Assembly: GCF_030323265.1 (NCBI RefSeq)
Contig: NZ_CP104992.1
Coordinates: forward strand, 2,021,501-2,085,500
Direction of reading: 5' to 3'
DNA from: Terrirhizobium terrae
GTDB lineage: Bacteria > Pseudomonadota > Alphaproteobacteria > Rhizobiales > Rhizobiaceae
DNA: 64,000 nt
Part shown: one piece after another, positions 44,525 through 59,821 of the stretch
Layout: every line of letters starts with the position of its first letter
Numbering within the stretch: position 1 is the stretch's first letter
Translations under genes and position numbers: made by a program
The notes under the pieces: generated by a model
What the model was told of the DNA's origin: nothing
The model's input: the letters and a program-made list of their open reading frames with translations, nothing else
Database searches by the model: none

Positions 44525-44644
44525 ACCTATATTGAGTGAGAGGTGTCGTTCGCCATTTGCGGCTGAGCGGCTTTCCTCAAGGCAGCCGGGCCTGAAGTCC
44601 AGCCATGGCAGCATCTCAAGCATTTGACGGCATCTGGAAGCATC

Positions 44645-45267
44645 ATGGATCCACTTGGACAGCTGATACACTGGTCGGCGGAATACGGCCTGTTCGGGGT
44701 CTTTCTCATCGTTTTTCGGAACGTATCATCCCGATCTTTCCCTCCTACGCCATCATGGCGGCCGTCGGCATCGGCGCGGAATCGGGCGCATGGTCGCCCG
44801 CCGCCGCCCTGATCGCCGCGATCGCCGGCAGCTATATCGGCGGGTCTATCTATTATTTCTGCGCCGCGAGCGTGTCCGAAGAGCGCTCGTTCCGCTTCCT
44901 CACGCGCTTTGCGCTCCTGTTCGGAACCTCGTCGGACAAGGTGCAGAAGATGATCTCCTATTTCCGTACCAATCAGGCAGCACTGTCCTTCACCGCCCAG
45001 CTCGTGCCGACCGTCAGGCTGGTCGCTCCGGCCATTGCGGGTCTCCTCAAGGTAAAGCCCGGTCCGTTTGCGCTGGCGGCTGGTCTCGGCGTCGCCGTCT
45101 GGAACTCGCTCTTCTTCTTCATCGGCTATGTCTGCGCGCGCTTTTCCTTCGACGGCAATGTCTCGGAGCTGGCGCTTGAACTGCTGATCGTGTTGATGAT
45201 CGTGGAAAGCTTGGCCTTCGTGGTCTGGCGCCGGTGGCGCAGACGAAAGATGCCTGCGAGCGGCTGA
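44645..45267 (+). pseudogene. DedA-family membrane protein, frameshifted
   Basis: ATG 44645 (GGAAG upstream) starts MDPLGQLIHWSAEYGLFGVF. A missing T in the T5 run near 44711-44715 breaks the frame; adding one T gives LIVFSERIIPIFPSYAIMAA, then the DedA helices with AAIAGSYIGGSIYYF and QLVPTVRLVAPAIAGLLKV. The restored protein has about 207 residues and four to five helices. DedA proteins act in lipid-carrier recycling and membrane homeostasis. A sequencing loss is more likely than decay because every other position is intact. Confidence 0.85.
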
Positions 45268-49663: not shown

Positions 49664-51290
49664 ATGGAGCGGCTGGCGGGTAGGGTCATGCTACTGTCGG
49701 GCATGCCCCGGGTGGCCCTTGCATTCATTGCCGGAGCGGTAGGCGCATTCGCCCTGCCGCCTTTCGGCTTTTTCGCGGCGCTTTTCGTGTCGTTCACGCT
49801 GCTGGTCTGGCTGATCGATGGATCGACCGGCAATCCTGGCGGCGGCGTCCTGAGCCGCCTGCGCTCGGCCTTCTTCATCGGCTGGCTCTTCGGTTTCGGT
49901 TATTTCGTCGCGAGCCTCTGGTGGCTGGGCAATGCGCTGCTCGTCGAGGCAGACGATTTCGCCTGGGCGTTGCCTCTGGCGGTGCTGGGCCTGCCCGCAG
50001 TTCTCGCGCTTTTCTACGGGCTTGCGGCGGCACTGGCGCGCATTCTCTGGTCCGATGGCCTGGGACGCATCGCGGCCCTGGCGGCTGCCTTCGGTCTCGC
50101 CGAGTGGCTCCGCGGCTTCGTGCTGACCGGTTTTCCCTGGAATGCCGTCGGCTACGGAGCGATGCCGACACCTCTCATGATGCAGTCGGCGGCGGCGATC
50201 GGCATATTCGGTGTCAGCGTTCTCGCCGTTTTCGTCTTCTCGGCGCCGGCTCTCATCGGAACGGGCAAGGGCAAGGTCGCCGGCCTCGGTCTCGCGGCGC
50301 TTCTGCTGCTGGCCCATTTCTCCTACGGTGCCTGGCGTCTGCACGGCGCCGATGCGGCCCTTGCGGCGGCCGTGGGAGAACGCAAGACGGTCCGGCTCGT
50401 TCAGCCGTTGATCGACCAAGCCGAAAAACTCGACAATACTAACCGCGCCGAGATTTTCGAGGAGCATCTGCGGCTGTCGGCATTGCCGCCGCAAGGGAAG
50501 GGGCAGGAGCAGGGAGAAGGCGAGGGCAAGCGCCCCGATATCATCGTCTGGCCGGAAACCTCAGTTCCCTTCATCCTCACCGAAAATCCGGATGCCCTGG
50601 CGCGCATTGCCGACGTGCTGCAGGACGGCCAGGTGCTGATCGTCGGTGCCGTGCGTTCGGAAAACGCGGGCGCCGGCATGGCGCCGCGCTTCTATAATTC
50701 CATCTATGTCATCGACAGCGACGGCCAGATCATATCCGCGGCCGACAAGGTCCATCTCGTGCCGTTCGGCGAATATGTTCCCTATGAGAACCTGCTGAAG
50801 AGCATGGGCGTGACCGACGCAATCGCCATGCCGGGAGGTTTCACCGCCGCTCCTAGCCGCTCATTGCTGACGCTGCCCGGCGGCGCCCTGTTCTATCCGC
50901 TGGTCTGCTACGAGGCTATCTTCCCGAACGAGATCGGCCGCGATGTAGAGCGCGCCGCAGCGCTGCTTAATGTGACGAATGATGGCTGGTTCGGCGCCAC
51001 CCCAGGGCCCTACCAGCACTTTCAGCAGGCAAGGCTCCGTGCCGTGGAAACGGGGCTGTTTCTGATTCTGTGGCGCCAATACAGGCATTTCCGCCGTCGT
51101 GGACCCATTCGGCAGGGTAGTAAGCGGCTTGAACTACAATCAAAAGGGCGTGATTGATGCTACCATAGGAGGTGGTGTTCCTGGGGTTTCAGCAGGTGAA
51201 ACGAAACAGCGTAACTTCTGGTTGTTGTTTATAGTAATGTCGGCAATTGGGGCAATTTCGCGCTTAAGTTTTAAAACGCGCAAGAATTGA
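49664..51290 (+). pseudogene. lnt: Apolipoprotein N-acyltransferase, frameshifted near the end
   Basis: From ATG 49664 (AAGGGGG upstream) run six to seven membrane helices and the nitrilase-like periplasmic domain with catalytic Glu in WPETSVPF, Lys in ADKVHLVPFGEYVP and Cys in PLVCYEAIF. An extra T near 51071 throws the last part out of frame; without it the sequence reads LFLIRGANTGISAVVDPFGR and continues to 51290 with the last helix. Lnt adds the third acyl chain to lipoproteins after LspA. It is normally essential in proteobacteria, so a sequencing error is likely. Confidence 0.9.
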
Positions 51291-54424: not shown

Positions 54425-54854
54425 CTACTCTGAGACGGAAATGTTAATTTTTCGCACTATGCGCTGGGGTTCCGGGCGGGTGAGATCGACGGAAAGGAGA
54501 CCGTTCCTTAACGATGCGGTGCCCACTTCCATACCGTCAGCGAGCACGAAAACCCTTTGAAACTGCCGTGCTGCGATACCCCGATAGAGATAGTTGCGCT
54601 CCGGCTGGTCGATCTGCCGTCCACGGATGATCAATTGATTTTCTTCGGTCGTGACATCGAGTTCGGCCTCCGAAAAGCCGGCTACCGCAAGGGTGATCTC
54701 GCAGCTTTTCCTCGCCATCCGGCACGTCCGCGCGGATTCTGCTCTATGTTGTAGGGGGATAACCCTCGTTCGCCTTGGCGAGGCGCTCCAGCGTCTTTTC
54801 CATCGCGTCGAAGCCCAGCAATAGCGGGCTCGCGAACGGCGTCATTCTGCTCAT
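54425..54854 (-). pseudogene. Small heat-shock protein Hsp20, with three indels
   Basis: From ATG 54854 (AAGGA upstream) the frame reads MSRMTPFASPLLLGFDAMEK and stops after YPP. The alpha-crystallin domain (ITLAVAGFSEAELDVTTEEN, LIIRGRQ) is in another frame to 54425. A loss of one C near 54755, an extra A near 54737 and an extra base near 54705 explain the whole break and would give YPPYNIEQIRADVPDGEEKL. Hsp20 proteins hold unfolding proteins during heat stress. Three indels in 60 bp make a true pseudogene more plausible here than elsewhere. Confidence 0.82.
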
Positions 54855-54911
54855 CGTTCAGTCCTTGCATCAAGCGACCAACCCGATGCCCTGGCGGCAC
54901 ATCGGAACGAG
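54855..54911 (-). promoter_or_regulatory. ROSE-like RNA thermometer in the hsp20 leader
   Basis: The leader folds into two hairpins. The first is CCGATG (minus strand) with CATCGG, at 54883-54905. The second, 54860-54879, pairs GGTC-g-CT with AGGACT, so the anti-Shine-Dalgarno UCGCU with its bulged G covers the ribosome-binding site AGGA (54862-54865), seven bases before the ATG. UYGCU facing AGGA is the hallmark of ROSE elements, which melt at heat-shock temperature to free the ribosome-binding site in rhizobial small heat-shock genes. Confidence 0.75.
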
Positions 54912-54917
54912 CCATTC

Positions 54918-54946
54918 ATATGGGGGCTGCCTGTCTTGATCGCAAG
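54918..54946 (-). promoter_or_regulatory. RpoH (sigma-32) promoter of hsp20
   Basis: On the minus strand CTTG (54946-54943), 17 bp, CCCCATAT (54925-54918), a full match to the classical sigma-32 -35 core and -10. The predicted start near 54911 begins the two-hairpin leader exactly. Confidence 0.75.
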
Positions 54947-54982
54947 GCAATCCGGATGACCGCGACGCGCCATCCGGACTGC
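54947..54982. repeat. 12-bp imperfect inverted repeat upstream of hsp20
   Basis: Arms 54947-54958 and 54971-54982 pair over 12 bp with one mismatch (core TCCGGATG/CATCCGGA). It abuts the -35 of the heat-shock promoter and could be a regulator site or a hairpin ending readthrough from upstream. Confidence 0.5.
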
Positions 54983-58191: not shown

Positions 58192-58303
58192 GCGGGCAAT
58201 CTAGCAGAACGTGAGCGGATGGAAAGATCAAAACGTGAACATATGTCGGCAAAGCTATGTCTTGCCTGTTTTCATGCCGCAAAAGATGCGCTATGGGGGC
58301 GGA

Positions 58304-58818
58304 ATGACGATCAAGCCGCTTATCATTCTTCCCGACCCGCTTCTGCGCCAGGTTTCGACCCCGATCGAGACCGTCGACGCGGATGTTCTAAAGCTTGCCG
58401 ACGACATGCTGGAAACCATGTATGATGCGCCGGGCATCGGCCTTGCCGCAATCCAGATCGGCATAGCCAAGCGCATGCTCGTGATCGATGTGTCGCGCGA
58501 GGACGAAGAGAAAATCCTCAGGTCATCATCAACCCGGAAATCCTGAAATTCTCGGACGAGCCTTCGGTCTATGAGGAAGGCTGCCTTTCGATCCCGGAAT
58601 ATTACGCCGAAGTCGAGCGTCCGGCGATCGTCAACGTCAAATATGTCGGTCGCGACGGCAAGGAACACATGATGGAGGCCGACGGCCTTCTCGCAACCTG
58701 CGTGCAGCACGAGATCGACCACCTGAACGGCGTGCTCTTCATCGACCACATCTCGCGCCTGAAGCGCGAGATGGTGATCAAGAAGTTCACCAAGGCTGCC
58801 AAGGGCAAGGCGATCTAA
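58304..58818 (+). pseudogene. def: Peptide deformylase, frameshifted
   Basis: ATG 58304 starts [18 protein letters not shown]; motif 1 [12 protein letters not shown] is intact. A missing A in GAGAAAATCC near 58509-58512 breaks the frame; adding one gives [15 protein letters not shown], then motif 2 [14 protein letters not shown] and motif 3 [12 protein letters not shown] to the TAA at 58818. The repaired length is 171 residues, which is normal. Def removes the N-formyl group from nascent proteins and is essential, so the break is almost surely an artefact. Confidence 0.92.
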
Positions 58819-58874
58819 CACGGCGCTGCGGCGATCCGAAACCGGAAGGCGCGCTTTTGAAGCGTGGAAGGTCC

Positions 58875-59821
58875 ATGTCTCTTCGCATCATCTTCATGGG
58901 CACGCCGGAATTTTCCGTGCCGACGCTGCAGAACCTGAAGCAGGCGGGCCATGAGATCGTTGCGGCCTACACCCAGCCGCCGCGCCCGGCCGGTCGCCGC
59001 GGTCTCGACCTCACCAAGTCGCCCGTGCATCAGGCTGCCGAGCTGCTGGGGATCCCGGTGCTGACGCCGCTCAACTTCAAGGCCGAGGAAGATCGGGAGA
59101 CGTTTCGTGCATTCAACGCGGATGTCGCGGTGGTCGTCGCCTATGGCCTGCTGCTGCCGGTCGCCATCCTCGAAGGCACGCGTTTCGGCTGCTATAATGG
59201 CCATGCTTCGCTCCTGCCGCGCTGGCGGGGTGCCGCGCCGATTCAGCGGGCGATCATGGCGGGTGACGAAAAGACCGGCATGATCGTCATGAAGATGGAA
59301 AAGGGCTCGACACCGGCCCGATGGCGCTGACGAGAGAAGTCGCGATTTCCGAACAGATGACGGCCGGTGAGCTGCACGACAAGCTCATGCTCGTCGGTGC
59401 GCGCGCCATGGTCGAGGCGATGGAAAAGCTTGAGGCCGATGATCTGCCGCTGACGCCGCAGCCGGAAGAGGGTGTGCTCTACGCCGCCAAGATCGACAAG
59501 GCGGAAACCCGCATCGATTTTTCCAGACCCGCGCGGGACGTGCACAATCACATCCGCGGCCTGTCGCCCTTCCCGGGCGCGTGGTTCGAGGCAGAGATCA
59601 ACGGCAAGCCGGAACGCATCAAGGTGCTGTCTTCGACGATGGGCGAAGGGCATGGCGAAGCCGGCGAGTTTCTCGACGATGCGCTGACGGCCGCCTGCGG
59701 CGATGGTGCGGTGAAGCTGACACGCCTGCAGAAGGCGGGCGGCAAGCCGCTGGATGCTGCCGAGTTCCTGCGCGGAACATCGCTGCCGAAAGGCACGAAA
59801 CTGCCGCTCGGATCCGCCTGA
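58875..59821 (+). pseudogene. fmt: Methionyl-tRNA formyltransferase, frameshifted
   Basis: ATG 58875 (GGAAGG upstream) starts [19 protein letters not shown]. The formyl-transfer motif [16 protein letters not shown] is near 110. A missing C near 59305-59308 breaks the frame; adding one yields [16 protein letters not shown] and continues to 59821, giving about 315 residues. Fmt formylates initiator Met-tRNA, the step reversed by Def. Its stop shares a base with the truA start. A one-base error in each of two adjacent linked genes again points to sequencing. Confidence 0.92.

Follow-up and report, generated by a model that had tools for sequence, protein, structure and literature searches.

A predicted RpoH-driven hsp20-larA operon of rhizobia headed by a probable short ROSE-like RNA thermometer

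Introduction

Is the small heat shock gene hsp20 of Terrirhizobium terrae placed under temperature control twice, once by a heat-shock promoter and again by the folding of its leader, and if so to which class of RNA thermometer does the leader belong and which genes would it serve? We addressed these questions on the minus strand of a 64,000-nucleotide stretch of contig NZ_CP104992.1 (the window, whose own numbering is used throughout), where a first-pass annotation had proposed an RpoH promoter feeding a ROSE-like thermometer of a new, minimal form.

Passages of PMC3669281 give classical ROSE elements three to four hairpins and describe, before the ibpA genes of Pseudomonas, two-hairpin ROSE-like leaders of 61-62 nt under sigma-32, which carry U(U/C)GCU with flanking G-C pairs and which in five species induced a reporter 3.3- to 8.3-fold. 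Among rhizobia, every class A sHsp gene of Mesorhizobium loti MAFF303099 is reported to have a ROSE element, in passages which also note that RpoH and ROSE act together on rhizobial sHsp genes and cite RpoH dependence in S. meliloti (PMC3989490); for S. meliloti itself two ROSE-like elements are named, one upstream of ibpA and the other of SMb21295 (passages of PMC2873474). The two-hairpin plan is thus already published, and the proposal of a new minimal version is not supported, while the promoter and the two-hairpin leader hold on the strength of conservation and covariation. We consider it very probable that this leader, at the head of a predicted RpoH-driven hsp20-larA operon, acts as a short ROSE-like RNA thermometer. 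The promoter, both hairpins, their conservation and covariation (the latter mainly in hairpin I) and the gene order are read from sequence; from these we infer the melting of the leader with temperature.

Promoter and leader structure

On the minus strand the -35 element CTTG (54946-54943) is followed after 17 bp by the -10 element CCCCATAT (54925-54918), or after 18 bp by CCCATAT, placing an nCCATAT-type box at RpoH spacing. The -10 element resembles the RpoH-like R. etli motif in passages of PMC4167512, which also state that RpoH and sigma-70 promoters predicted in rhizobia can overlap. Between the -10 box and the hsp20 ATG at 54854-54852 lie 63 nt (54917-54855), and a transcription start about 7 nt past the box would give a predicted transcript leader of about 57 nt, in agreement with the length first proposed.

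For comparison, 60 genomes (59 relatives besides the window's own) were searched by DNA similarity; every one of the 35 same-genus relatives gave a match, and 29 loci were fetched from these. A scan of named genomes confirmed 585 of 598 candidate stretches, and the best 80 loci were kept, from Rhizobium, Neorhizobium, Shinella, Sinorhizobium/Ensifer, Pararhizobium, Hoeflea, Agrobacterium, Mesorhizobium, Phyllobacterium, Nitratireductor, Aminobacter and others. With the window this makes 110 loci, some records being present in two collections; as they were chosen by gene or protein similarity, they represent the nearer part of the family. The promoter, which had been described correctly with its 17-bp spacing, recurs as CTTG-N17/18-nCCATAT in 110/110 loci compared (the window, the 29 same-genus loci and the best 80 named-genome loci), 107 of them distinct around the start. 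We infer that RpoH transcribes the hsp20 leader from a start close to the position given above.

Two hairpins make up the core of the leader. Hairpin II (54878-54861), the putative thermosensor, reads GUC(G)CUUG - AUG - CAAGGAC, its stem being made of GUC/GAC and CUUG/CAAG. The Shine-Dalgarno sequence AGGA (54865-54862), assigned from the sequence and the leader comparison, lies inside this pairing, masked by UCGCU with G54875 bulged, just as the first-pass annotation had described for the second hairpin. Hairpin I (54905-54883) has a variable stem with many compensatory changes and an apex of the form YGCY...RGG with G54898 unpaired. That the leader holds exactly two hairpins is true of this conserved core but not of the whole predicted fold, since the minimum-energy structure of the window leader adds an outer stem joining its 5' end to the start-codon side. 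Taken alone, the window leader does not fold significantly well (z -1.07; an equally good fold in 31 of 200 shuffles), so its single sequence proves little and the case is made by comparison.

Conservation and covariation of the hairpins

The 110 leaders comprise 103 distinct sequences, in which 59-83 nt separate the end of the -10 box from the ATG. GTCGC is present in 103/103 distinct leaders (from the 110 loci listed) and TCGCT..AGGA in 101/103, the exceptions being L027 and L066. In minimum-energy folds UCGCU pairs with AGGA in 70 of the 103 distinct leaders; the same-genus figure is 20/30 by script and 22/30 when L024 and L025, whose second GTCGC the script misread, are read by eye. The loose apex pattern YGCY..RGG of hairpin I occurs in 94/103 leaders, and its G is unpaired both in single-sequence folds and in the structure used for counting. 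In alignment A7 five of the eight leaders have U-A as the apical pair of hairpin I and the other three C-G, and all retain the following C-G pair and the unpaired G.

For covariation 30 of the 103 leaders were trimmed and 27 of these aligned, L029, L058 and L101 being omitted for spacer or loop length. In alignment A4 six rows are one base out of register in the 3' arm; they were retained and count against the structure. MAFFT alignments A1, A3, A5 and A6 put hairpin I out of place and were excluded from the counting of pairs. From the 27 leaders RNAalifold predicted the two hairpins, including the bulged G in II, with the two pairs at the apex of hairpin I left open. For the named structure, 92.3% of cells were paired vs 79.7% in shuffles, and 67 cells showed two-sided compensatory change vs 20.4. 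The covariation score, which kinship can inflate, was 0.406; shuffles gave 0.175 and slid partners no more than 0.156. Two of the five measures did not separate from shuffles, namely the number of pairs with two-sided change (8 vs 6.8; 68/500 shuffles as high) and the number of further pair types (20 vs 19.2; 204/500 as high).

Nearly all of this covariation comes from hairpin I. Five of the seven pairs of hairpin II are invariant, and because it hardly varies, covariation says little about it. Hairpin I was further assessed by swapping arms between leaders: the 94 leaders with the apex pattern (the nine without it were dropped) formed 436 pairs vs 294.6 expected (sd 12.0; the highest of 5000 permutations reached 336), a statistic that ignores kinship. 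Descent alone is an implausible source of the likeness between stems, since these differ as much as GGAAAAA/UUUUUCC does from CCGGCG/CGCCGG.

Covariance models and distribution

A match to the Rfam ROSE model had been proposed as a check, its absence being one half of the refuting condition, and none was found: the window has no ROSE match at the gathering threshold, and the leader gives none even at E 10. The model likewise missed all the relatives searched, 0/16 same-genus and 0/20 named loci, although as a positive control three of the four other hsp20 loci of the same genome match RF00435 at 48.9-63.9 bits. We read the lack of a match as a gap in the model's reach because these 36 related loci are missed too. 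The fourth locus, L001 (C1:298974-302264 of the same genome), has a leader near 1919-1965 on the minus strand that ends GUCGCUU..GGAGGAC and also lacks an Rfam ROSE match.

In class terms, the leader has two hairpins where classical ROSE has three or four, and as modelled it lies outside RF00435. By its sequence it nevertheless fits the definition of the broader ROSE-like class: it precedes a small heat shock gene (PF00011), and in its 3'-most hairpin an anti-Shine-Dalgarno of the form U(U/C)GCU pairs imperfectly with the Shine-Dalgarno. Its length of about 60 nt and the two hairpins of the RNAalifold consensus agree with the short form of that class.

Two covariance models were built from the leaders, R1, which includes the window sequence, and R2, which avoids circularity by using eight leaders from outside the genus. 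The best match of R2 within the window is the leader itself (54909-54860; 31.4 bits, E 4.1e-6), the next reaching 11.4 bits. Across the whole genome (5.9 Mb) the same site ranks first (E 3.8e-4), followed at 18.1 bits. Were these chance hairpins before an ordinary sHsp gene, the poor single-sequence z score and the lack of an Rfam match would be expected, but conservation and covariation across many genera and the match to the held-out model R2 leave that explanation with almost no probability.

With a limit of E 0.01, R1 matched in 62 of the 199 genomes of the family. Of these matches 61 lie directly before hsp20: 59 have 2-14 nt between their end and a listed hsp20, and L158 and L159 were placed by reading. 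The match in G180 has no hsp20 behind it and was taken as chance. An sHsp match of some kind was obtained in 195/199 family genomes, most of which R1 misses; the leader diverges, and the search applied stricter filters. A class-wide search with R1 matched in 7/289 genomes, one being the window's own; by a pattern-based assignment two of the other six (L151, L153) stand beside an shsp2-type frame and four do not.

Beyond the family, 64/115 genomes of other alphaproteobacterial families (the window's own included) gave an sHsp match. Besides the window's own, 29 loci (within the set L161-L190) were fetched, and six were dropped as the pattern used did not locate their start, leaving 23. A strict U(U/C)GCU..AGGA was present in 13 of the 23 leaders; shuffles preserving the Shine-Dalgarno side gave 2.6 (maximum 5). 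The CTTG promoter pattern fits only 3/23 of these loci, and larA was detected in 6/23 by a one-sequence tblastn. The ROSE-like element may therefore be older than the Rhizobiaceae, to judge by these motif counts.

The hsp20-larA unit

The window hsp20 (54854-54425) is shsp2-like and its frame is interrupted, a first frame of 36 codons being followed by an ORF (54718-54425) that encodes the alpha-crystallin part (PF00011). In the 29 same-genus relatives fetched (of 35 matched) the gene runs for 139-147 codons with no stop. It is possible to see here a decaying pseudogene with the thermometer as its relic, as the interrupted frame itself would suggest, but we hold this to be improbable. Compared with relative G034, def and fmt (58262-59818) are clearly split between frames too, and lnt and a DedA-like gene (49664-51287 and 44633-45264; the latter named only from below-cut-off matches) are split less clearly. 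The first frame of hsp20 at L001 is likewise short, at only 70 codons, assembly completeness is 91.25%, and the window leader conforms to the family model. Since the frames of def and fmt are split as well, the break in hsp20 is more likely due to sequencing indels.

Against the NCBIfam IbpA model, L002-L004 score 154-157 bits and three proteins of the hsp20-larA lineage 103.5-108.7, all below the model cut-off of 212. On these lower scores the window hsp20 is, by sequence, a kind of sHsp more divergent from IbpA than the three other copies of the genome.

Behind hsp20 on the same strand lies a DUF1150 gene (54405-54124; PF06620, E 2.6e-30), absent from the first-pass annotation and probably the second gene of an operon. 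It follows hsp20 by 19 nt when the longest ORF is taken, and a possible start, ATG 54381, can be read behind GGAGG. DUF1150 stands behind hsp20 on the same strand in 110/110 loci compared, the best 80 included (worst E 1.6e-18), 441-568 nt from the hsp20 ATG and, in the 70 of the 110 loci where this could be computed, 13-142 nt past the hsp20 stop. S. meliloti Ak57 (CP090106.1, titled pSymB) shares with the window the gene order metK, trmB, larA, hsp20, nucleoside hydrolase. The window protein has the features of LarA, namely a DUF1150 domain, a C-terminal histidine (it ends TVSLH) and a gene placed behind an sHsp gene. The S. meliloti orthologue of the present hsp20 is, we presume, SMc01106, and its leader would be the third ROSE-like element of that species.

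In Caulobacter, passages of PMC10665427 describe LarA, annotated as DUF1150, as an activator of the Lon protease and report the shsp2-larA operon to be sigma-32 regulated. By analogy the window DUF1150 protein is likely a Lon activator. The leader likely heads an hsp20-larA unit, since DUF1150/LarA follows hsp20 in every locus compared; cotranscription and any effect through LarA would go with this arrangement.

Discussion

The scheme we propose combines two layers of control. Heat or unfolded protein would raise sigma-32 and the operon would be transcribed. At growth temperature hairpin II would pair AGGA with UCGCU around the bulged G and keep hsp20 translation low, hairpin I serving as a scaffold for stable folding or for stability. 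Warming would open the weak hairpin II and admit the ribosome, upon which the small chaperone would be made, and possibly LarA too, by coupling.

The thermodynamic model predicts almost no such opening. With ViennaRNA the AGGA of the window leader is unpaired with a probability of 0.02 at 25 °C and 0.05 at 42 °C, and 4-7% of shuffles are equally closed. For L007, the closest relative, the model gives a half-open state at all temperatures, and over 102 leaders the median rises from 0.05 to only 0.11 between 25 and 42 °C. Heat control might accordingly lie in the RpoH promoter alone, the hairpins merely lowering basal translation or protecting the mRNA 5' end. This small predicted shift in Shine-Dalgarno accessibility is what such an arrangement would give; passages of PMC3669281 discuss hairpin I as a possible stabiliser, and the passages cited here give no reporter data for the hsp20-larA lineage. 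Yet UCGCU stands opposite AGGA in nearly all distinct leaders, as is typical of ROSE-like leaders, and the five Pseudomonas leaders of the same plan do respond to temperature in reporters (passages of PMC3669281), and we think control by the promoter alone unlikely. The ROSE-like thermometer remains our preferred reading. A bolder version, in which throughout Rhizobiaceae and their neighbours it gates both hsp20 and LarA such that Lon rises only if sigma-32 induction and warmth coincide (an RNA-based AND gate on proteolysis), and in which hairpin I, with its conserved bulged-G motif, is a second sensing or protein-binding part, is speculative and rather unlikely.

The nearest known system is Pseudomonas ibpA, which has in common with the window the leader size, the two hairpins, a Shine-Dalgarno masked by U(U/C)GCU between G-C pairs in hairpin II, a GC-rich hairpin I and a sigma-32 promoter. 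There the gene is IbpA, whereas the window has an shsp2-type gene with larA behind it. The window hairpin I has the YGCY/RGG apex with its unpaired G, a feature that the Pseudomonas hairpin I may or may not share. Classical ROSE (RF00435) shares the position upstream of sHsp genes and the anti-Shine-Dalgarno hairpin, and differs in hairpin number and in the covariance match that the window lacks. ROSE-G elements of ABC transporter genes, as set out in passages of PMC12857270, also have a bulged-G anti-Shine-Dalgarno hairpin, but with CUGCU, an opposing bulged G on the Shine-Dalgarno side and other genes behind. Caulobacter crescentus shsp2-larA shares the sHsp gene followed by DUF1150/LarA and control by a heat-shock sigma factor (passages of PMC10665427); the word thermometer is absent from that paper, and the thermometer proposed here is drawn from the leader comparison. 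A search of open-licence PMC literature by title and start of abstract returned no paper joining a thermometer with larA. As far as this literature shows, what is new is a rhizobial family missed by Rfam and its place at the head of an hsp20-larA unit.

These results add a family of short ROSE-like leaders in rhizobia and related Alphaproteobacteria, unrecognised by Rfam in the loci tested, and show the two-hairpin plan outside Pseudomonas. With a likely Lon activator as the second gene, the unit could be used to test whether temperature sensing by RNA feeds into protease activity. The variation in the stem and bulge of hairpin I provides natural mutants for the role of the 5' hairpins of ROSE elements.

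Two further observations concern hairpin I and the sequence next to the promoter. The closest relative, L007, lacks in the corresponding stretch the arms of an inverted repeat, AGTCCGGATG..CATCCGGATT, which in the window (54949-54980) directly precedes the -35 box and so lies between hsp20 and the nucleoside hydrolase gene divergent from it. The passages of the cited ROSE-like papers gave no account of a bulged-G motif in hairpin I; in the present leaders its unpaired-G motif resembles the bulged-G motif of the thermosensor hairpin II.
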